Of a stretch of DNA of 64,000 nucleotides, positions 1,731 to 12,177 are shown piece after piece. The notes beneath the pieces were generated by a model. The model was not told the origin of the DNA. It was given only the letters and a program-made list of their open reading frames with translations, and made no database searches. Every line of letters begins with the position of its first letter. Position 1 is the first letter of the stretch. Origin of the DNA: Comamonadaceae bacterium (GTDB lineage: Bacteria; Pseudomonadota; Gammaproteobacteria; Burkholderiales; Burkholderiaceae_C); assembly GCA_947450675.1 (NCBI GenBank), contig CANFWI010000008.1, forward strand, positions 1-64,000, written 5' to 3'. The position numbers and the translations under genes are program-made.

Positions 1731-4724
1731 TCAGCGGCCACCCTCGCCAACCAAGGCATAAGGCGCCCAGTAAGCCGGGTGTGAAAAACGTGAGACCTTC
1801 ATGGTCTCCAACATAGCTTGCCGCAATGCTTCGGCACGTCGAATCGCTGCATCACTCTTGTAGGCTGCAAAAGTTTTTGTTGTCAGCATCATGGCGCTTT
1901 CACTTTCAACGGCCCAATGCGTGACCAACAGGCTGCGACTGCCTGCATAGAAAAATCCACGCGCTAAACCTGTCAAAGCCTCACCCGCACGGCCGTCGGC
2001 GCCAGCTGTGTTGCAGGCGGACAGCACCACCCAATCGGCATTGAGCTTAAGCGTCAGCACATCTTCCAAAGTGAGCAACGGAGAATCCGCCGCACTGGCA
2101 GTGGACGCCATCGCAAGCGCCGGTTGATTCAGGTTCGGAAGGTCACCGGCCAGCAAACCATGGGTGGCAAAAACGACCACCTGCTTGCGGGCGAGTAGAC
2201 CCGAGACACTGTTGTTGAGCACCGAGACACGGGTCGCCTGCGCACCCAGTATCACATCAAGATCTGGGTTGGCGGACATGATTTTCGCCAACTGAAGAAC
2301 TTCATCGCGCGTTTCCGGCAACGGGGGTAACTTGCTATAGGTCACGTAGGTGTCTGGGTCCAGTACGTTGCGGGGCGTCAGAGCTGCAGAACGCAGGTTT
2401 GCCACACCTCGCACAGCCGAAGTCTCAGCTGTCGGTGTGCCATCTTTTGGCACCGCTTTGACATCAAATTTTGGGTCGCCCCAAGCCATCAAAGGTTGGG
2501 TACCACCAGGTACTTTTCCCAACTTCTTAAGTGACAACCAACCATTGGCAGTAGGAACATAGCTGACAGCTATATCCTTGATCAACCATGGTGCTTGCGC
2601 TGCGTCTCGACCGCTGAAAGGTGTGCGCGTCAGGACCGCCATGGGTAGTTTGGCCAATGCACCCGAGCCTGCCACAACCAAGTGCTTTTTATCTTTCAGC
2701 TCTGCTTCAAAAGGACTCAGAAATTGCGCATACAACTGATGTGCGCCAGCGTAGTCAAAGACAGGTGCACGACCGCCCAGTTCGGCCACGTCTAGTGTTT
2801 TTCGGATGCGATCGACGATCGCATTCGTTTGTTTTTCGGCCATCTCTGAGATATGAAAATTAACTCGCCCTCGGGAATCGATAGCCCATAGAAATGTTTT
2901 ATCCTCCATTGGCAGAACACTGACGAACAACTCATCAGCTTTGAGTTGCTCCGAGATGTCGCTTGGGCGTGGTGATCGGGGTTGTATCAACTGAAAATAC
3001 TCGGGGTAGTCCTTGCTAATTTGAGCTCGATAACTTTTACGTGCAGCTTCGAGCTCACGCATACGCGCACGCATTTGGGCCACCACTTGCGTATTTCGTT
3101 TTTTGTCATCTTCTCCAGCCTGACTGCTGATGTAGCCCGTCAGAGTAGCAATTTCGTTCTTTGCATCCTGCTCTTGACGGATGACGTCGGACAACCCTGG
3201 CACGCTGACACCCGAACGTACCGCGGCATCGGACAACGCCTGCTGCACCGAAGATGCGCTCAATTGATCGGCTACTTGGAAGAGGATTTCTGCATCTTGA
3301 CGATTGGCTTGCGCCGTGACCGCCAACAACTGCATGTAATTTTGAAAAATGAATTTCTTAGTCTTCAGTTGAAAAGCGCTTTCAACAAAATCCCCAGACA
3401 GAGAATCTGGGGATACGATGTTCGTCATCGACTTGTCAAACTCAACACGCGCTTCAGTAGCCAGGTTGTTGCGCCAGAGCGCGACGGCATACAGGCCGCG
3501 AAGAGACACCGTGAAGTAGTGGCCTTCCCCAAAATTATCGATATGCCACTGCATGCTGCCACGCAATACTTTCAAGGCCTCTTCATGGCGTCCATTCTTG
3601 AGGTAAATGTAGGCGCGAACAACAGCACGATTAGCCAGCGCTGGTGAAGCATTGGTTCGCTGTTGTTGCCGATCCATTTCATCCAAATTCAGCAATGCTT
3701 TTGACCAGTCATCTTGACCGGCCAACGCTATGTTGGCCCGGAACTGACTGAACAACCAGCGTGGAGACCCTTTTTGGTAGCCTTGGGCCAGCGAAATTTT
3801 TTCGCTACGCTCGGCAAAAGGAAGTGCCTCCTTGTACTGACCCGTCACGTTGTACAAGTCTGCAACACGGTTGTAAAAACCGGCCATTTGAATCTCAGTG
3901 AACCCTTGCGCTTTGGCTAGTTTGAACGTTTCTCGAAGTGTCCATTCTGCATCTGAATACAGCCCAGCGGCCATTTGCTGCGTCGCTAACTCGACCATTG
4001 CAAACATCACACTCACCTGACCGTAAGTCCGCAATGACCCTTCTGGTGCAGAACGGGTTAAACCTAAAAATATCTGACCTTTTTCGGCGGCATGCTTTGC
4101 GGCTTGAATGCCCTCCGACCACTTTCCTGTGCGCATCAGATATCTGGATTTGGCAACGTGAAACTCCATCTCCGCCCGGGCTATGTGCAAACCGGCATCC
4201 CCTCTAACTGGAATTCTTCCAAACTCAAAACGGATGATTTTTTCGGCCTCGTCGAGCAGTTGTGATGCTTGCTTGAGGTTGCTGTCATCGAGATAATTTT
4301 TGGCCAGAATGACCCTCAGCCTGACAGAACTGGGCGCCCACTTGGCGTCGCTGATCAATTCCTTGCCCAAGCGATACGATTCAGACTTCCTTTCGGTGTC
4401 TGACAAAACCATCATCAAGCTCCATTTCCCGTCAATAGGGTCGACGAGCATCCACTCTCTTGCGTTGCGCTCACGGCTGACAATATCGCCCAACCGAAAG
4501 GCCGCCAGATCTTTTTGTCGAAATAGAGCTGACTTTTTAATATGGAGCGTATCCGGATCAATGACCGTATTCAAGACGTCACGCAACCGGACCGTTTCCT
4601 CTGCGGATAAAACCGCTGCTTCTGCTTCGTCTCCGATTTGCGCGAGGACACAGATCGGAAAAAGTGACACAGCACACACAAGCCCAAGACAAGTTCTGCG
4701 CGCGAGAAATAAAAGGAATTGCAT
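1731..4724 (-). CDS. exported TPR-containing CHAT domain protein (caspase-like peptidase)
   Basis: 997 aa. Signal peptide ending VLAQ, helical TPR-like repeats, C-terminal CHAT motifs VVFATHG and VVLSACNTAGAD. Confidence 0.9.
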   Translation of the reverse strand: MQFLLFLARRTCLGLVCAVSLFPICVLAQIGDEAEAAVLSAEETVRLRDVLNTVIDPDTLHIKKSALFRQKDLAAFRLGDIVSRERNAREWMLVDPIDGKWSLMMVLSDTERKSESYRLGKELISDAKWAPSSVRLRVILAKNYLDDSNLKQASQLLDEAEKIIRFEFGRIPVRGDAGLHIARAEMEFHVAKSRYLMRTGKWSEGIQAAKHAAEKGQIFLGLTRSAPEGSLRTYGQVSVMFAMVELATQQMAAGLYSDAEWTLRETFKLAKAQGFTEIQMAGFYNRVADLYNVTGQYKEALPFAERSEKISLAQGYQKGSPRWLFSQFRANIALAGQDDWSKALLNLDEMDRQQQRTNASPALANRAVVRAYIYLKNGRHEEALKVLRGSMQWHIDNFGEGHYFTVSLRGLYAVALWRNNLATEARVEFDKSMTNIVSPDSLSGDFVESAFQLKTKKFIFQNYMQLLAVTAQANRQDAEILFQVADQLSASSVQQALSDAAVRSGVSVPGLSDVIRQEQDAKNEIATLTGYISSQAGEDDKKRNTQVVAQMRARMRELEAARKSYRAQISKDYPEYFQLIQPRSPRPSDISEQLKADELFVSVLPMEDKTFLWAIDSRGRVNFHISEMAEKQTNAIVDRIRKTLDVAELGGRAPVFDYAGAHQLYAQFLSPFEAELKDKKHLVVAGSGALAKLPMAVLTRTPFSGRDAAQAPWLIKDIAVSYVPTANGWLSLKKLGKVPGGTQPLMAWGDPKFDVKAVPKDGTPTAETSAVRGVANLRSAALTPRNVLDPDTYVTYSKLPPLPETRDEVLQLAKIMSANPDLDVILGAQATRVSVLNNSVSGLLARKQVVVFATHGLLAGDLPNLNQPALAMASTASAADSPLLTLEDVLTLKLNADWVVLSACNTAGADGRAGEALTGLARGFFYAGSRSLLVTHWAVESESAMMLTTKTFAAYKSDAAIRRAEALRQAMLETMKVSRFSHPAYWAPYALVGEGGR

Positions 4725-4775
4725 TTTTTATTCCAAAATTTTACCGACACCAAAAAGGGCTGAATTCATTGGCAT

Positions 4776-5267
4776 CTATTCGACTTCAAGGCGCATTTCG
4801 CGCTCGGCAACACGCTGCTTTTCATCCATCACCTGCATCGTCATGCGGTGCTTACCGGCTGGAATTTGAGCGCTCTCCAACGCAAAACCTTCTTTGGTCA
4901 CTTTGACGAATTTTGTGATGCGGCTGGTGATGTCAATTTTGAAAGTCCCGTACAGAACCTTAAATGTGCTTGGATCAATCGGCGCATCTGACTGACCTTT
5001 GAACAGCACCGAAATTGGAAAAGGGGCTTTGACTTTCATGTCAGCCACCGCATCAGGTTTCAAAATATCAATTTGAGGCATCAATGCACGCGGCCTCAAT
5101 GCTGGTTGCTCATAGAAGCTCTCCTCGCCTTTGAACTCGCGGGCTTCGGCAGGCGTCACCAACCAGCCGTCAGGAGCCGCAGATAAGGTAGTTTCAATTT
5201 GTGCAAATGCCGACACCGCCCCAAACAACAAAGTGCAGCAAACCAATTGTTTTTTTCTAAAGTTCAT
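4776..5267 (-). CDS. small secreted protein of unknown function
   Basis: 163 aa with signal peptide (SAFA|Q). Start codon overlaps caspase stop (ATGA). Confidence 0.75.
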   Translation of the reverse strand: MNFRKKQLVCCTLLFGAVSAFAQIETTLSAAPDGWLVTPAEAREFKGEESFYEQPALRPRALMPQIDILKPDAVADMKVKAPFPISVLFKGQSDAPIDPSTFKVLYGTFKIDITSRITKFVKVTKEGFALESAQIPAGKHRMTMQVMDEKQRVAEREMRLEVE

Positions 5268-7132
5268 TTTGTCTCCTCAATAGCAAGCATGGCTGCGCCA
5301 TAGGCGTCTGAACACAAAGGGTTGTTGCGGCGAGTCAGGACGTTCAAGCAAGACTGACTGACCACCAACTGCGAGCTTGTCATCAGTGCGCCTAACTTCG
5401 CCCGACCTTGGGCATCGTTGAAGGAACTGACAAAGGGGCCCGCCTTGTTCGCTGCCAGCGCCGTGAGATCGCGTGGTGCATCCGCAACCATCACTAACAA
5501 GTTGTCCATTCCGGCGGGGCCGCCCGCCTTGACGCGCCAGTTGGGTCGGGGCAACTGAATTGTCTGATTTGCCTCAATTTTGTTGTTTTGATCGAGGTCA
5601 TTTGGAAACAATAAATACAGCGCCTTGTTGTCTGATCCGGCAAGCGCAACATACACATAGCCAGCACGATCTGACTGAACTGAAAAATCGAGCGTGTCCT
5701 GGCCAATCTTTAACTTGTCCTTGCCGGCGGTCACTTGCACTCGGCGCTTAGCGTCGCGCTGATCAAACATTTGAAGCAACGCTTTCTCGCCCGTCAATGC
5801 AGCAGGAATCGGTACCACTGGTGAGGCGACGACTGGTGAAGTGAGCGGCAATGCAACCGGAGTAACAACAGCAACTGCGCTGGGCTGGCTGAACCAAGCG
5901 GGTACAAACGCCGCGTTGCCATTGAGCACTAAGTTGTGCGGCTTGAAATTGACATCGTTGGCCATGCGTTTGTTGATTTTTACTTGCGCACATTGCCGGA
6001 TTTCGTCCATGCTAATGGCTCCAGAGTTATCCAGATCAACAGCGTCACGCAGCATGCAGTCACGCATGTACTGCGTGGCCAAACCGCCCTTTTGTTCGTC
6101 GTCGAAACTGATCTCGTTGTCGCGCGAAGCACTGACATGAATGATGTCTTGAGGCAGTACACCCGTTGCCGTTGTCTCCACCAATAGATTCCGGGTCTTG
6201 ACGTTCACTGGGCGTCCGCATTCCTCAGATAGGCTGGCAAACTTGGGCCGCAACAAGCCCTCGTCATTCAAATTAAGAATGCCTCGCGTACGAACAGAGG
6301 TCGCGGCCTGGGCTAATCCACCCGAATGGCAGGCGTCATACATCACAAACAATTTATCAGTCTTGTTGGTGATGGTCTTGAGCAAGTCGGCCATTTCATG
6401 ATTGGTGATCATGCCGCTGCTGCCGCCGTCATACGCCAACAATGCTTCAACGCAGCCACCAGCAACCGGGTCGTTATAACGAGTGCCATGTCCTGAGTAA
6501 TGAATAAAAACTCGGTCACCGTCTTGCACTTGGGCGGTCAAGTCTTGCAGCGCCTGACGGATGTTGTTGCCAGTGGCCTGATCGTCCTGCAAGTAACGAA
6601 TATTGCTGGCTGGCACCTGCATGGCTTGCGCCATTTGTGTTGCCGACTCCTTGTCAATTTTGGCGCCTGGCAAAGATGGGACAGTAGCGTCTGCATACCG
6701 ACTGATGCCGATGATCAGCGCGTGGCGATTGACACGAGGCGGCATACTTCGAACCCCCAATGTCAGGGCCGTGTTGCCTGCCGCTTCTCTGCCACTGACC
6801 AGCTTGGAAACGTTAGATGCAGCCGTTTGCCAGTTAACACTACTGGCACGAACCCAACCAGTCATCTTAGGGCTTGATTTGTCCGAGCTTGATGCCGTCT
6901 CGACCAATGTCCAGCCACCCTCGGCACTGATGAGGCGCAACCGCATTCCAGAGGCAAGGCCGGATAAAACCGGTGCCGAACCCAGTTTGTCAGACCTCAG
7001 TTCTGTCGCGCGCAGGGTCACCACAATTTGACCCGGTACCGCCGTCTGTGCAAGTACGTCGAGCGTGAAGAACAGACTCGCCATGGCGAAAATATAAAAC
7101 TGGATTCGGTTTGAATGTCGACTGGCTGTCAT
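5264..7132 (-). CDS. exported caspase family (C14) protein with SH3-like N-terminus, EF-hand-like loop and DUF4384-like C-terminus
   Basis: Start moved to ATG 7132 (MTASRHSN...). HYSGHGTRY and MYDACHSGG motifs, DLDNSGAISMDE loop, GYVYVALAG...LLFPND. Confidence 0.9.
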   Translation of the reverse strand: MTASRHSNRIQFYIFAMASLFFTLDVLAQTAVPGQIVVTLRATELRSDKLGSAPVLSGLASGMRLRLISAEGGWTLVETASSSDKSSPKMTGWVRASSVNWQTAASNVSKLVSGREAAGNTALTLGVRSMPPRVNRHALIIGISRYADATVPSLPGAKIDKESATQMAQAMQVPASNIRYLQDDQATGNNIRQALQDLTAQVQDGDRVFIHYSGHGTRYNDPVAGGCVEALLAYDGGSSGMITNHEMADLLKTITNKTDKLFVMYDACHSGGLAQAATSVRTRGILNLNDEGLLRPKFASLSEECGRPVNVKTRNLLVETTATGVLPQDIIHVSASRDNEISFDDEQKGGLATQYMRDCMLRDAVDLDNSGAISMDEIRQCAQVKINKRMANDVNFKPHNLVLNGNAAFVPAWFSQPSAVAVVTPVALPLTSPVVASPVVPIPAALTGEKALLQMFDQRDAKRRVQVTAGKDKLKIGQDTLDFSVQSDRAGYVYVALAGSDNKALYLLFPNDLDQNNKIEANQTIQLPRPNWRVKAGGPAGMDNLLVMVADAPRDLTALAANKAGPFVSSFNDAQGRAKLGALMTSSQLVVSQSCLNVLTRRNNPLCSDAYGAAMLAIEETK

Positions 7133-7154
7133 AGGGTTTACCGCTTGTTTATTT

Positions 7155-8786
7155 CTAATCAATTTTTTTAAAAACATGCCATGCTGAAAAAACATTGCTC
7201 GCCAATTTTTCGCGATCGGAAGGCATATCTGACATGACCAGTTCACCGCGTCTATTGGTCAGACGCATCAGCGCAGGTTCGAGCTGATTACGGGCTGCAA
7301 GCAGCGAATTCAATGGGCCGACCACTGCGGCAAAGCGCGCCAACTCAGGCCATCGTTGTGTAGCCAGCCCACCTTCATGAGAATCACAAACCACCACGCG
7401 ACAGTCGGGGGCGTGATGTTCAACAGCATCAATCAGGCGATCCAAAGGGGCCTCTGACCATGCGTCATGTCGAGCCAAGGGCCAAATAGCCAGCGGCTGA
7501 TCCGATGGTGGAGGAGAACACCAGTAATTCCGGCGCAGGGTATTCCAATAGCGCAAGAGCGCTAGGAAGACCAAGGCCAAGCCAGCGGCTAGGTGTAAGT
7601 CCACAAACATTGGTGAGCCGTTCAGGCTGAGGTAGCTGATGCCCAGCAACGCCGCCGGCAAAACAAGCAGCGCGGGAGCCAACGAACCCACACTCTTGAT
7701 TTGTCCCCACAAGGCCAAGCAGACGCAGAGTGCAATCGCAAAAATAGCTTGCGCCCATCGGGGCAGCTCCGCCAACTGGCGTTGATTTAATAAGTTGTCC
7801 AAAGCGGCCGCCAGCGAATCGACGCCAGCTTGCATGCTAAACAAAGGAGTCGCATGAATATCATGCAAGCTGGGCGCTGTCGCACCGATGATGACAATTT
7901 TCCCAGCAAAGCTGGGAACCATTGCCAACGGTTTTCCGCCTTCAGCTTGATCGAAAACATCGGCAAAAGAAATATGTGGATAGGCCGGCCCTTCACGTCG
8001 CCAGGCAATCAACTCATCACAGTAGTCAAGATATGAGCCCCTTGATCTAGCCAAGTAGGCTTGATATGCGACCGGATTGAGTGCCCGCAAAACACTCAAC
8101 GGTAGCGACTGAATCGCACTACCGTCGGCCAACGGCTCTATGTACCGGTAACGGCGAAGTACACCGTCGTCATCAACATAGCCGTTGTTAAAGCCCAAAC
8201 TGCTCGCGGCCACCGCCGGGAGTGCCGGTGGTATCAGTGCCACCGTTGCGCGACCAGAAACCGAATGAAAGACGGGAGCAACCCACAACTCCGGCAAAGC
8301 ACTCTCGGTTATTTCACTCCTCTTGTCGTTGACTTTAGGCAGGCGAACAACCGAAAAATGACTATGGGCACTGCGCTTGACTGCTTCGTCGAAGGCCGCA
8401 TCGCCACCTGGACTGATGCGGTCTGCATCCGAAAACAAAATATCCCAGACCACTGCGGAGGGGACTTGGCCTTCGACATAGTCAAGGACTGTCGCCAGCG
8501 TGTCACGCGGCCAAGGCCAACGTCCGAACTCTTTGGTCATCCGTGCGAGGGACGCTTCATCAATATCCAGAATCACAATACGCGGATCTGGTGCTGCTAC
8601 AAAAACGCGAGCACGCACCATTGCATCAAAACTCGACTTTGCTAAGCCCCCTGTTACCTTGAATATAAAAATATCAAGCACAACCCACACGGAAAAAAGC
8701 AGAACCAATCCCCAAGTGACTCTGCGAGTTGGCAGTGCACCAATACGGTCAAGCAACCGCTGCCAATGAGTGCGCATTTCAGTCAT
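7155..8786 (-). CDS. CHASE2 domain-containing membrane protein
   Basis: 543 aa. FDAMVRARVFVAAPDPRIVILDIDEASL...WPWPR motif typical of CHASE2, then TM helices and a ~130 aa C-terminal region with no recognised output domain. Confidence 0.88.
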   Translation of the reverse strand: MTEMRTHWQRLLDRIGALPTRRVTWGLVLLFSVWVVLDIFIFKVTGGLAKSSFDAMVRARVFVAAPDPRIVILDIDEASLARMTKEFGRWPWPRDTLATVLDYVEGQVPSAVVWDILFSDADRISPGGDAAFDEAVKRSAHSHFSVVRLPKVNDKRSEITESALPELWVAPVFHSVSGRATVALIPPALPAVAASSLGFNNGYVDDDGVLRRYRYIEPLADGSAIQSLPLSVLRALNPVAYQAYLARSRGSYLDYCDELIAWRREGPAYPHISFADVFDQAEGGKPLAMVPSFAGKIVIIGATAPSLHDIHATPLFSMQAGVDSLAAALDNLLNQRQLAELPRWAQAIFAIALCVCLALWGQIKSVGSLAPALLVLPAALLGISYLSLNGSPMFVDLHLAAGLALVFLALLRYWNTLRRNYWCSPPPSDQPLAIWPLARHDAWSEAPLDRLIDAVEHHAPDCRVVVCDSHEGGLATQRWPELARFAAVVGPLNSLLAARNQLEPALMRLTNRRGELVMSDMPSDREKLASNVFSAWHVFKKID

Positions 8787-8797
8787 GCCGACCGATA

Positions 8798-9364
8798 TCA
8801 GTCTAGGTTGACGATACGAACTCGACGATTTTCAGGGGCAAACGGATCCGCGGTGTTTGCCAACTGTGAGGCGCCCTTGCCCGTCGCTACCAAGCGAGCA
8901 TCCACAACGCCCCACTTTTTAAGAAGATCACTGACCGCATCGGCGCGTTGCTGGCTCAGTTGTTGGTTGTGATCGCTGCGACCCTTGGCGTCTGTGTGGC
9001 CCTCAACCAAGAAGTTAGAGTGGAGCAACTCCTGCGACTGCAAGGCTTTGGACAGGTTAGCCAAGGCTTGCTGACTTTCAGGACGCACGCGCGCAGAGTT
9101 GAAATCGAATTGAATAAGCAATGACAACGAAGGTTTTTCAAGCGTAGCCGCCGACGGCATAGGCGCTTCTTCGGAATTAGTTGCGATCTTGTCCCCCACA
9201 GCGTTAGCAGAGACAGCCTCCACCGATAGATTTCTCAAACCACGCGTTCGAGGTGCTTTGAGTTGCTGAATCATCTCCTCTGCGCTGGGTACGACGGTTT
9301 GCGCCGCCACATACATGGGACAGAAAAAACAAGAAAGAAGCAAAAGTTTCAATCCGCCGCTCAT
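8798..9364 (-). CDS. OmpA family protein
   Basis: Signal peptide (VAAQ). OmpA-C motif FDFNSARVRPESQQAL...VEGHTDAKG...NRRVRI. Confidence 0.9.
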   Translation of the reverse strand: MSGGLKLLLLSCFFCPMYVAAQTVVPSAEEMIQQLKAPRTRGLRNLSVEAVSANAVGDKIATNSEEAPMPSAATLEKPSLSLLIQFDFNSARVRPESQQALANLSKALQSQELLHSNFLVEGHTDAKGRSDHNQQLSQQRADAVSDLLKKWGVVDARLVATGKGASQLANTADPFAPENRRVRIVNLD

Positions 9365-9368
9365 AAAG

Positions 9369-9866
9369 TCAACTCTTGCTCTTTTTAATAAAAATCACCC
9401 GATCGACGACAGAATCACCATTTCCGTCGATTTTGAGCACTATTTCGGCGTCAAAAGCATGCGCTGATTTGTAATGCGTTTGATCCGACACACTTTTAAA
9501 CATGTCGGACGCAGACCACAAACTCGTCACCAGACTGATGATCAAGAAAGGGTTTTTGGGGGTCACGCTGGGTTTGGGAGGCAAAACCTTGACAGAACCG
9601 CCACCCGCCTCGACAGAAACCATCCAGTGCTGAAGCCGGTCAGGCAGTGCGCTCGGAGTGACTTTGTCAAAGAAAGCAACTTCAACTTTGGTCAGTGGCT
9701 CTGCCAAGGCTGCCGTCAGCTCACGGTCGAAGCTTTTTAAATCGACGAACGTCAACTCAGGTTTTGCCGTGGCTTGGTTGGCAGTCGGTGGTGTGTTTGA
9801 TGCGCAAGCGCTCAACAACAAGAACGCCGACAGAACTAATTGACTTCGAAATTTGTAATTTTTCAT
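9369..9866 (-). CDS. putative lipoprotein of unknown function
   Basis: Start at ATG 9866 (MKNYKF). Lipobox LLSAC. 4-nt gap to OmpA-like gene. Confidence 0.75.
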   Translation of the reverse strand: MKNYKFRSQLVLSAFLLLSACASNTPPTANQATAKPELTFVDLKSFDRELTAALAEPLTKVEVAFFDKVTPSALPDRLQHWMVSVEAGGGSVKVLPPKPSVTPKNPFLIISLVTSLWSASDMFKSVSDQTHYKSAHAFDAEIVLKIDGNGDSVVDRVIFIKKSKS

Positions 9867-10086: not shown

Positions 10087-10980
10087 TCAAAAGGTCTTGA
10101 GGCTGACAATCAAGTTGCGCAGCCATCGGTTGCCGGCATCCATGTCTTGACGTCCATGCCAGTGCTGCATAAATTTCATGGGGGGCAGCTCAAATGGCAG
10201 CTTCACCTTTTTTAACTGCGCGTGCTGCATCAACACGTCTGCTACGCGGACTGGCGTCGTCATCAAATAGTGGGTCGAGGCAAGGATCGTGGCTACGGAT
10301 GTGTAGTTTGAAAGATTGGCTGCAAATTTTCGATAAATCCCCAAGCTCTCGAGGTGCTTATTCACCAAATAAAATCCACTGGTCTGGTTTCTAATCGTCA
10401 GATGCCTGACTTCCTTATACTGCTCACGCGTGATTTCATCACCAATTTCAAGATGATTCCTTGAAATCAGCCCCACATAGCTTGAATCAAATAGCAGTTG
10501 TTGAAAATAATGCGCTTTGATCGGGTGAGCGATACCAAGAGCCAAGTCGACAAGCCCCTCTGAAAGCTCATTTTCGACATTTGCGGTGATGTTTGACACC
10601 TCCACCCGAACTCTGGGTGCGACGGTGTTGAGCCGCTCTAGCAGAGGGGGAAGCCACAGAAGTTGCCCAAAGTCCGACATGGCCACGTTAAACACCCGAT
10701 CCGACTCCTCAGGAACGAAGTTCAATTGAAAGCTCAAAGACTCTTGCAGGCTGTCCGCAGATTTTTTTATCGACGGAAAGAGTGCATGTGCAAAAAGTGT
10801 CGGCTCCATGCACTTGGGGGTTCGGACAAACAAAGGATCGTCAAAATGATCCTTCAAGCGCTTCAGCGCCAAACTGACGCCAGGCTGAGACAACCCTAAA
10901 GCGCTAGAGGACTTGGATAAATTCCCAGTTTCGTACACCTTAAGAAATACCAATAATAAATTTAAATCTATATTTTTAAT
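10087..10980 (-). CDS. LysR family transcriptional regulator (probable ATT start)
   Basis: Track begins at TTG 10953. In-frame upstream codons give (ATT)KNIDLNLLLVFLKVYETGNLSKSS, the normal LysR N-terminus, with GGAG 8 nt upstream of ATT. Confidence 0.75.
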   Translation of the reverse strand: MKNIDLNLLLVFLKVYETGNLSKSSSALGLSQPGVSLALKRLKDHFDDPLFVRTPKCMEPTLFAHALFPSIKKSADSLQESLSFQLNFVPEESDRVFNVAMSDFGQLLWLPPLLERLNTVAPRVRVEVSNITANVENELSEGLVDLALGIAHPIKAHYFQQLLFDSSYVGLISRNHLEIGDEITREQYKEVRHLTIRNQTSGFYLVNKHLESLGIYRKFAANLSNYTSVATILASTHYLMTTPVRVADVLMQHAQLKKVKLPFELPPMKFMQHWHGRQDMDAGNRWLRNLIVSLKTF

Positions 10981-11397
10981 TTGTATAACTCCGGATTATA
11001 TTAATTATAAAATTTAATTTATAGACGCTACATCTTCACCAATGCAGAATCAAGTATTAAATTAGCCGCATGGTAGTTTACTCTGCAAATAGTTAATTAT
11101 TTTATAATTCAAAACAATTTCACTGCGGCACTCATGCAATATTTAGCTTTTTCACTTACCATTATTAAAGTATTCGCCTACTTGGTAGGCCGCGACGTGT
11201 TGGTGATGACCGACGCTCCAGGCAAGTCCTTGTTTGACTTCAAGCGTTGGCCGCATGGGCGACAGGGTTGCGAATACTTCGGGCTGGGGTTGCATGTGGT
11301 CGTCTCCCGACTTCGCATGCCCCCTCCTGAAAATCGAACTTGACATCAACCCATCACGGCCGGCTTGACCAACAAAACACGGCTCGTGACACCAGGG

Positions 11398-11575
11398 TCA
11401 GTTTATAGCGGTGCCGATCTGCGCTTCCTCCAAAGCGAGCTCAGCCAACTCGGCTTCTGTGAACACCCGCGATCGGGTGTGAAAAGCTTTCCCTTCTGAC
11501 CCATCCAACGAGAACGTACCGCCTGTCCCGTCAATGACGTCAATGATGAGCTGCATGTGCTGACGAACAAAAACT
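11398..11575 (-). pseudogene. remnant of DUF779 family gene (C-terminal part only)
   Basis: Minus-strand translation VFVRQHMQLIIDVIDGTGGTFSLDGSEGKAFHTRSRVFTEAELAEL... resembles the DUF779 C-terminus. In-frame TGA directly upstream, no N-terminal half. Confidence 0.55.
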
Positions 11576-11676
11576 CATCATTGAAGCGGAGTTTCTATGG
11601 GCCTCGCGTGATCAGGAGGGCCGAGCCCAAGGTTATTTGGCACTCAGCAAAACCATGAAAAATAACGCTCAAAGCA

Positions 11677-12177
11677 TCATTGCGATTGATCTTTCGTCTC
11701 TTCCGAGACTTCGGATTCACGCTGAATGCCCAATAGCTTTTTGGTGAATTGCTCCAGCGGACCGCCCACCATCAAGATCAACAGCATGGCTGACAGTGCG
11801 CACACACCGAGCACATAAAACCCCGCCCCGAAGGTCGCACCCAAGATAGAACAAGCCCAAAGACTGGCGGCGGTCGTCAGGCCATGGATGTTTTGAGAAT
11901 TTGCTTGGTGAATGATCACACCGGCACCCAAAAAACCGATGCCGGTGATCAAGCCTTGGAGCACACGACTCGACGATTGCACATCTGCGTTGGGAAAACT
12001 GCCGATCAATAGCATCACCAGCGCAGACCCCAGCGCCACCAAAGAATGCGTGCGGATGCCCGCAGATTTGTGGTGTATCCAGCGGTTCAGCCCCAGGGTG
12101 ATGCCCGCCAGCAAGGCGAGACCCAGTCTGAACAAAATGTCAGGGCTTGTATTCATCGCGTCTATGGTCATGGTCAA
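11677..12177 (-). CDS. MgtC/SapB family membrane protein
   Basis: RLGLALLAGITLGLNRW...GIRTHSLVALGSAL...GIGFLGAGVI motifs. Confidence 0.9.
   Translation of the reverse strand: MTMTIDAMNTSPDILFRLGLALLAGITLGLNRWIHHKSAGIRTHSLVALGSALVMLLIGSFPNADVQSSSRVLQGLITGIGFLGAGVIIHQANSQNIHGLTTAASLWACSILGATFGAGFYVLGVCALSAMLLILMVGGPLEQFTKKLLGIQRESEVSEETKDQSQ

Follow-up and report, generated by a model that had tools for sequence, protein, structure and literature searches.

In bacteria, caspases and CHAT proteases are for the most part treated as cytoplasmic effectors of immunity or cell death. The characterized members of peptidase family C14 other than caspases all prefer Arg or Lys at P1, caspases cleave themselves in the p20-p10 linker, and one orthocaspase, MaOC1, was counted as biochemically characterized in the review of 2017 (PMC5756287). 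In the survey of Asplund-Samuelsson et al. (2012), 14 metacaspase operons contain genes with an OmpA domain, and an N-terminal helix, possibly a signal peptide, is present in many metacaspases; the terms "CHAT" and "periplasm" were not found in the accessible part of this survey text (PMC3501461). A fusion of a metacaspase with CHASE2 is described from Trichodesmium erythraeum in the accessible parts of two papers (PMC3501461, PMC2853523). No open-access paper uniting CHASE2, the CHAT domain, and a caspase was found. Here, a cluster of genes for a C14 caspase, a TPR-CHAT protein, a CHASE2 membrane protein, an OmpA-like protein, a lipoprotein (Lpp), and a small secreted protein is described from a Comamonadaceae bacterium. 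The window that was analyzed is the first 64 kb (64,000 nucleotides) of contig CANFWI010000008.1, in a genome of 3.06 Mb and 97 contigs.

The cluster is interpreted as a cassette of envelope proteases that is conserved in Burkholderiales, in which a self-cleaving, Arg-specific periplasmic caspase would cut its partner proteins, with the CHASE2 protein as the likely trigger. A probability of about 0.5 is assigned to this interpretation. If it is true, this is a bacterial caspase whose natural substrates can be identified, and it raises the question of which roles caspases have beyond the cytoplasm. The predicted cleavage sites are exact to the residue, and a caspase pathway outside the cytoplasm is directly testable.

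An Arg Motif Shared by the Caspase and Its Partners

A shared Arg motif, which an earlier reading of the window (the sequence-only reading) had missed, gives the most direct mechanistic link among the proteins of the cluster. The motif TR[SG], with the Arg 11-15 residues after the catalytic Cys, is present in 51 of 57 caspases. It is located inside a loop modelled as disordered (predicted local distance difference test, pLDDT, <50), and the loop behind the catalytic Cys is where the subunits of classical caspases are cut apart (C163 and D175 of caspase-3). With a hydrophobic residue following (TR[SG][ILVMF]), the motif is found in 49 of 58 caspases and 40 of 44 OmpA-like proteins, against 4.0 and 1.0 expected from control genes, respectively; the homologues are not independent, so these expected counts overstate the significance. 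The same motif was not found in the four other OmpA-domain proteins of the window genome (G000).

In the family alignment, the linker of the OmpA-like protein is variable save for a helix-like segment, PSAEQMIEQLK, and the motif (R/K)TR[SG]LRN[LI]. The sites compared in the window are TRGILNL in the caspase, TRGLRNL in the OmpA-like protein, and VRGVANL in the CHAT protein, and VR[SGK] is observed at the CHAT insert in all eight CHAT proteins of the clusters. A second conserved Arg of the caspase lies in KTRNLL, for which distant relatives carry KTRSLL. In the small protein, a basic residue ahead of the putative Ig-like domain is invariant; this site is RPRA in the window, [RK][AS] elsewhere, and TRSL in loci L062 and L063. 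At L020-L022, which encode a CHAT and a small protein with no C14 gene seen nearby, the CHAT protein has ATRG and the small protein TRGI, and thus the motif match is independent of the presence of C14. At L068 (12213-13120), two small-protein genes with the linkers TAKA and TRSI stand in tandem beside both C14 and CHAT genes.

These shared Arg motifs are proposed to be sites at which Arg-specific proteases of clan CD cleave all of these proteins. Given the preference of C14 members other than caspases for Arg or Lys, a periplasmic proteolytic cascade is proposed, in which self-cleavage would be followed by cleavage of the wall-bound partner.

Features of the C14 Caspase

The two window enzymes are classified in the C14 and CHAT families (Table 1). 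The start of the caspase is proposed to be the ATG at 7132, which yields a Sec signal; the GTG open reading frame from 7246 is judged to be an over-extension, and caspase residue numbers refer to this long frame. The predicted layout is a Sec signal, an SH3b-like beta domain with a weak SH3_3 match, a caspase domain with an EF-hand loop, and DUF4384. As regards the p10 domain, which metacaspases have and orthocaspases lack, the Pfam match to C14 stops at profile position 195 of 233, but the confident part of the model reaches approximately residue 405 out of 622. The top PDB matches of the model (pLDDT 80.8) are metacaspase-9 (Foldseek e-value 1.7e-12), metacaspase-4, and MALT1.

The conserved H253 and C306 align with the His of SGHGTR and with DSCHSGG of metacaspase-4, and D198 and D304, each conserved in at least 95% of the sequences, align with the residues of its acidic S1 pocket. 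Four further Cys residues (265, 343, 397, and 419) are invariant besides the catalytic Cys, as would be expected for disulfides in an oxidizing compartment such as the periplasm. In the EF-hand loop, which is of canonical form, positions 1, 5, 6, and 12 are conserved at 100% and position 3 at 95% (56 sequences), and the caspase is probably calcium-dependent.

Export and Partner Proteins

The sequence-only reading had recognized Sec-type signals on the caspase, small, CHAT, and OmpA-like proteins and a lipobox in the first gene, and both features recur in the families. Export was gauged with a simple Sec-signal rule, not with SignalP, and the counts include the window protein plus its relatives. 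A signal was recognized in 27/27 Lpp, 40/44 OmpA-like, 54/58 C14, 32/36 small, and 8/8 CHAT proteins, compared with 128/423 control genes (other genes of the same loci). The lipobox column of Lpp, Cys21, is Cys in 93% of 27 sequences. The predicted periplasmic location is well supported by the sequences, and the enzymes may be anchored by means of OmpA-C and coupled to the CHASE2 protein, as the sequence-only reading proposed.

Lpp shows no significant similarity to a family, and conserved FxDLxxFDxxL, W, and GG motifs are recognized in it. The OmpA-like protein comprises a Sec signal, the conserved helix-like segment (PSAEEMIQQLK in the window), the variable linker, and an OmpA-C peptidoglycan-binding domain in which D125 and R140 are conserved in at least 95% of 44 sequences. 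An outer-membrane beta-barrel of the OmpA type is absent from this 188-aa protein, where the signal peptide and a short linker precede the domain.

The small protein has no significant Pfam family; weak matches to Big_13 were obtained for 9 of its 33 homologues (lowest e-value 0.009), and it is probably a single Ig-like domain. A sequence search of solved structures gave no useful match for it, and profile searches of the window protein gave no match to the gasdermin family. A zinc-ribbon protein (CPxC...C..C at its start) with weak Pfam matches adjoins small/CHAT or small/caspase genes at L068 (13123-13899), L019, L021, L023, L066, L067, and L070-L073.

The CHASE2 protein is predicted to consist of a transmembrane helix, a periplasmic CHASE2 domain, three further transmembrane helices, and a ferredoxin-like domain on the cytoplasmic side at about residues 430-520. 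In its model (pLDDT 84.5), the helices are at 20-42, 343-363, 372-390, and 398-422. The topology of the C-terminal domain is beta-alpha-beta-beta-alpha-beta. No PDB match at e-value <0.001 was found by structure comparison, and a sequence search of solved structures gave none of use. Output through a known signalling enzyme (kinase, cyclase, or GGDEF) was considered and rejected, as the C-terminal 132 residues have no Pfam match and the ferredoxin-like matches are weak.

The CHAT protein carries a Sec signal, TPRs similar to kinesin light chain structures (5e-16), and a CHAT protease domain in which H855 and C904 are invariant among eight sequences. No gRAMP or CRISPR genes are present among the open reading frames listed around 1-14 kb.

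Distribution and Conservation of the Cluster

The caspase alignment was scanned against 84,980 genomes, and 80 loci were obtained, of which 57 (L026-L082) were treated as the Burkholderiales set. One locus of this set, L044, comes from a record titled as a Cytophagales (Bacteroidota) metagenome-assembled genome (MAG), and its caspase is 63% identical to the Burkholderiales family; this cluster is a candidate for a mis-binned contig or a transfer.

The caspase is the constant gene in the gene neighbourhoods. Among the 30 loci with full flanks, the OmpA-like gene is found in 25, the small protein in 21, CHASE2 in 18, Lpp in 14, and CHAT in 5, nearly always on one strand. The linkage of the caspase with CHASE2 and OmpA-C is conserved in the relatives, in support of the sequence-only reading. 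A second secreted caspase is encoded at many of the loci with full flanks (C14b in 15/30 and C14c in 7/30), and a CHASE2 homologue lies upstream of C14 in 31 loci. The exact six-gene order of the window was found in L026 (a Comamonadaceae MAG) and L027 (a Polaromonas MAG). Curvibacter gracilis, Limnohabitans radicicola, and Rubrivivax rivuli are among the named relatives with the C14 protein.

Of the 54 caspases placed in a tree, 34 group in a single clade (support 100/100), and nearly every member has CHASE2 immediately or a short way upstream. CHAT appears at three or more separate places within this clade, and outside it CHAT recurs with the small, OmpA, and Lpp genes but without CHASE2 (L064 and L068). 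CHAT is thus optional and the second enzyme exchangeable. The co-occurrence of caspase, CHAT, and CHASE2, which the sequence-only reading had set as a condition, is only half borne out: the C14-CHASE2 linkage is strong, but just five of the 30 loci with full flanks have CHAT. Its pairing of two caspase-like enzymes describes this genome, whereas in the relatives a secreted second caspase is commoner than CHAT.

The small-protein family was searched for in 399 genomes of the order, and each of its 12 matches, from 10 genomes, adjoins CHAT and/or C14. Of the 391 genomes in the GTDB family, 33 encode a caspase of this kind, as do 21 of the 141 genera, and four genomes of the same genus are without it. 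The caspase, sensor, and partner genes are kept together across many related freshwater bacteria. Plasmid and phage records contain no match to such a caspase, and phage protein families gave no informative match. C14, CHAT, and CHASE2 matches were found once each in the whole genome, all three inside the operon. Because the only copies of these genes are located here and the arrangement recurs in relatives, the six-gene arrangement is not due to chance.

A different pair was seen in ten genomes of the order survey, where a caspase (open frame of ~275-385 aa) and a CHAT protein (open frame of ~1,800-2,000 aa) are ~4.5-5.6 kb apart, for example at G157:C161:93336-98836, G118:C91:192006-197508, G342:C70:2672-8179, and G218:C1:3554248-3559674.

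Proposed Mechanism and Alternative Explanations

In the proposed mechanism, Sec would export the caspase and the CHAT protein, and both would work in the periplasm. The caspase would be an Arg-specific zymogen of the metacaspase type that cuts itself after T-R behind the catalytic Cys (R321, perhaps also R352). The active enzyme would then cut the T/V-R-[SG]-hydrophobic motif in the OmpA-like linker and the CHAT insert; the small Ig-like protein would probably also be cut, in its linker. The OmpA-like linker connects a conserved N-terminal helix with the peptidoglycan-bound domain, and its cleavage would free the N-terminal segment, or the bound protease, from the cell wall. As suggested by gene linkage, the CHASE2 protein of the inner membrane probably serves as trigger or reporter; its periplasmic domain may sense an envelope or outside signal, which the small cytoplasmic domain may pass on. 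CHAT and the additional caspases would be exchangeable downstream enzymes, and under envelope stress the outcome would most likely be either self-destruction or a controlled remodelling of the envelope. The fullest version, an all-periplasmic cascade in which a calcium-binding caspase self-activates at T-R-[SG] and cuts the OmpA-like, CHAT, and Ig-like proteins under the CHASE2 sensor, is offered tentatively and is itself rather less than an even chance.

The same motif in the partner linkers, the predicted Arg specificity, and the export of the components are also consistent with a processing protease, in which the caspase and CHAT would mature the OmpA-like protein, the small protein, and perhaps other surface proteins constitutively, with neither trigger nor death, much as the clan CD gingipains act on surface proteins in Porphyromonas. 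This explanation is possible and somewhat doubtful: the dedicated CHASE2 gene beside C14 in 31 loci suggests regulation, and the patchy presence of the cluster in the family argues against an essential maturation step.

Besides the non-independence of the homologues, several observations weigh against cleavage of the partners by the caspase. In L062 (4742-5353) and L063 (4731-5348), another gene for an OmpA-domain protein, whose linker contains RTRSF, is present ~4 kb from the caspase cluster, and because of this gene the motif may instead characterize a subfamily of OmpA proteins, with or without a caspase neighbour; it may also be a docking or structural site. No clear co-variation of TRG and TRS between the caspase and its OmpA partner was seen by eye. 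In clusters of the CHASE2 type, the small protein has RPRA or RARA in place of TR[SG], and some loci have no OmpA-like gene. A caspase homologue in a CHASE2/OmpA cluster, L065 (9803-11734), has DAGN for DACH and lacks the catalytic Cys; it is a candidate pseudo-protease. Lastly, a cleavage site would not need the full length of the OmpA-like motif, TR[SG]LRNL, in which R44 and N45 are conserved as well.

This last point favors docking, in which the Arg motif, as a docking or structural element, would bind the OmpA-like linker to the caspase with no cleavage, and OmpA-C would tether the enzyme to the wall. The OmpA-like segment that bears on docking versus cleavage is PSAEEMIQQLKAPRTRGLRNL, and the conserved helix-like segment of the same linker also suits docking. 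The motif is, on the other side, also present at the caspase self-cleavage position in a disordered loop and in two other unrelated partners, and docking without cleavage is considered unlikely.

An anti-phage or anti-predator suicide system, in which an envelope sentinel would detect surface attack through CHASE2 and kill with the secreted caspase and CHAT, is more unlikely still. Caspase and CHAT are the usual immunity effectors, and the caspase matches the PADLOC caspase model (4.8e-21); the patchy spread, the same-genus genomes without the cluster, the drop in guanine-cytosine (GC) content, and the exchangeable effectors fit such a system. Besides this single caspase model, the PADLOC search gave ZorB matches, which are weak and due to the OmpA-C domain, and marginal ones for CHAT and CHASE2. 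There is no complete PADLOC system, no neighbouring defence genes were seen, and every enzyme carries an export signal, whereas phage replication is cytoplasmic. With no complete system and no plasmid or phage relatives, the defence-island reading was set aside and kept as a rival; the cluster is not assigned to any defence system. Separate acquisition of caspase, CHAT, and CHASE2 in a hot spot, with no functional unit, would suit the low-GC island and the variation of CHAT and second caspases among loci, and is very improbable given the single copies in a 3.06 Mb genome, the overlapping genes, and the order conserved in the CHASE2 clade.

Gene Arrangement and Feature Coordinates

The six open reading frames at 1731-9866 are on the minus strand in the open reading frame list of the window, in the order Lpp, OmpA-C, CHASE2, C14 caspase, small Ig-like protein, and TPR-CHAT (Table 1). 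Their positions, spacing, and ATGA overlap, as first given by the sequence-only reading, agree with the open reading frame coordinates. The recomputed gaps are 4 nt (Lpp-OmpA), 11 nt (OmpA-CHASE2), 22 nt (CHASE2-C14, counted from the C14 start at 7132), and 51 nt (small-CHAT), and the C14/small junction is a 4-nt ATGA overlap (5264-5267). GC content drops to 0.48-0.54 across about 2-12 kb, versus about 0.59 around, which is compatible with an island. A promoter scan gave a result not above chance. In an empty-site test with genome G726, the alpha/beta hydrolase and the dehydrogenase that flank the cluster have their best matches on separate contigs, and no insertion site was readable. A LysR gene (10087-10953) precedes the operon, with an AT-rich stretch without a listed open reading frame (10953-11677) upstream of it; in L026 and L027, a LysR gene is not apparent directly upstream of the cluster.

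Table 1. Coordinates of the genes and sequence features of the caspase cluster in the window. Caspase residues are numbered on the long open reading frame.
Feature	Position	Strand	Evidence
Lpp, predicted outer-membrane lipoprotein, 165 aa	9369..9866	-	Lipobox; no known family
OmpA-like protein, 188 aa	8798..9364	-	PF00691 2e-20
RTRGLRNL motif (R39-L46) in OmpA-like linker, candidate cleavage site after R41	9227..9250	-	TR[SG][ILVMF] in relatives
CHASE2 membrane protein, 543 aa	7155..8786	-	PF05226 5e-46
C14 caspase, 622 aa	5264..7132	-	PF00656 (Peptidase_C14) 2.8e-23; DUF4384 7.6e-14
Caspase catalytic His, H253, SGHGTR	6488..6490	-	At least 95% conserved, 58 sequences
Caspase catalytic Cys, C306, DACHSGG	6329..6331	-	98% conserved, 58 sequences
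Caspase RTRGILNL motif with R321, candidate self-cleavage site of the inter-subunit loop	6269..6292	-	15 residues after catalytic Cys
Caspase KTRNLL with R352, another conserved Arg site, between the two subunit regions	6182..6199	-	R352 at least 95% conserved
Caspase EF-hand calcium loop DLDNSGAISMDE, residues 404-415	6002..6037	-	Conservation of key positions
Small secreted protein, 163 aa; linker R60 (LRPRA), codon 5088-5090	4776..5267	-	No Pfam family
TPR-CHAT protein, 997 aa; H855 at 2160-2162, C904 at 2013-2015	1731..4724	-	PF12770 2.7e-44
VRGVANLR (R772) in CHAT-domain insert, candidate cleavage site	2391..2414	-	VR[SGK] in cluster CHATs

Comparison with Known Systems

The TPR-CHAT protein of Craspase (Csx29) and SAVED-CHAT are CHAT effectors, and the window CHAT protein shares the TPR plus CHAT architecture with such effectors. 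It differs from them in its signal peptide, in having no CRISPR genes nearby, and in the company of OmpA-C and a secreted C14 protein. The gingipains of Porphyromonas (clan CD, C25) are exported, Arg/Lys-specific, and process surface proteins; they belong to another peptidase family and are not known to be accompanied by CHASE2 or CHAT.

The window caspase is most similar to the metacaspases and orthocaspases (MEROPS C14: Microcystis MaOC1, Arabidopsis metacaspase-4 and -9, and GSU0716 3bij), with which it shares the caspase fold, the His-Cys dyad, and the acidic S1 pocket, and, as a prediction, Arg/Lys specificity and self-cleavage. Unlike them, it carries an export signal, SH3b-like and DUF4384 domains, and four extra invariant Cys residues, and has dedicated OmpA-C, small, and CHASE2 partners. 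In the Trichodesmium erythraeum fusion, as far as the accessible descriptions go, the caspase is joined to CHASE2 on one chain and is thought to be cytoplasmic, whereas the window caspase is a separate protein, predicted to be exported to the sensor-domain side of the membrane. The cluster differs from the metacaspase-OmpA operons of 2012 in its set of CHASE2, CHAT, small, and lipoprotein genes and in the shared putative cleavage motif, neither of which was found in the accessible part of that survey (PMC3501461). New here are a caspase module predicted to be exported with its own wall-bound partner, and a T-R-[SG] motif common to the caspase and its partners.

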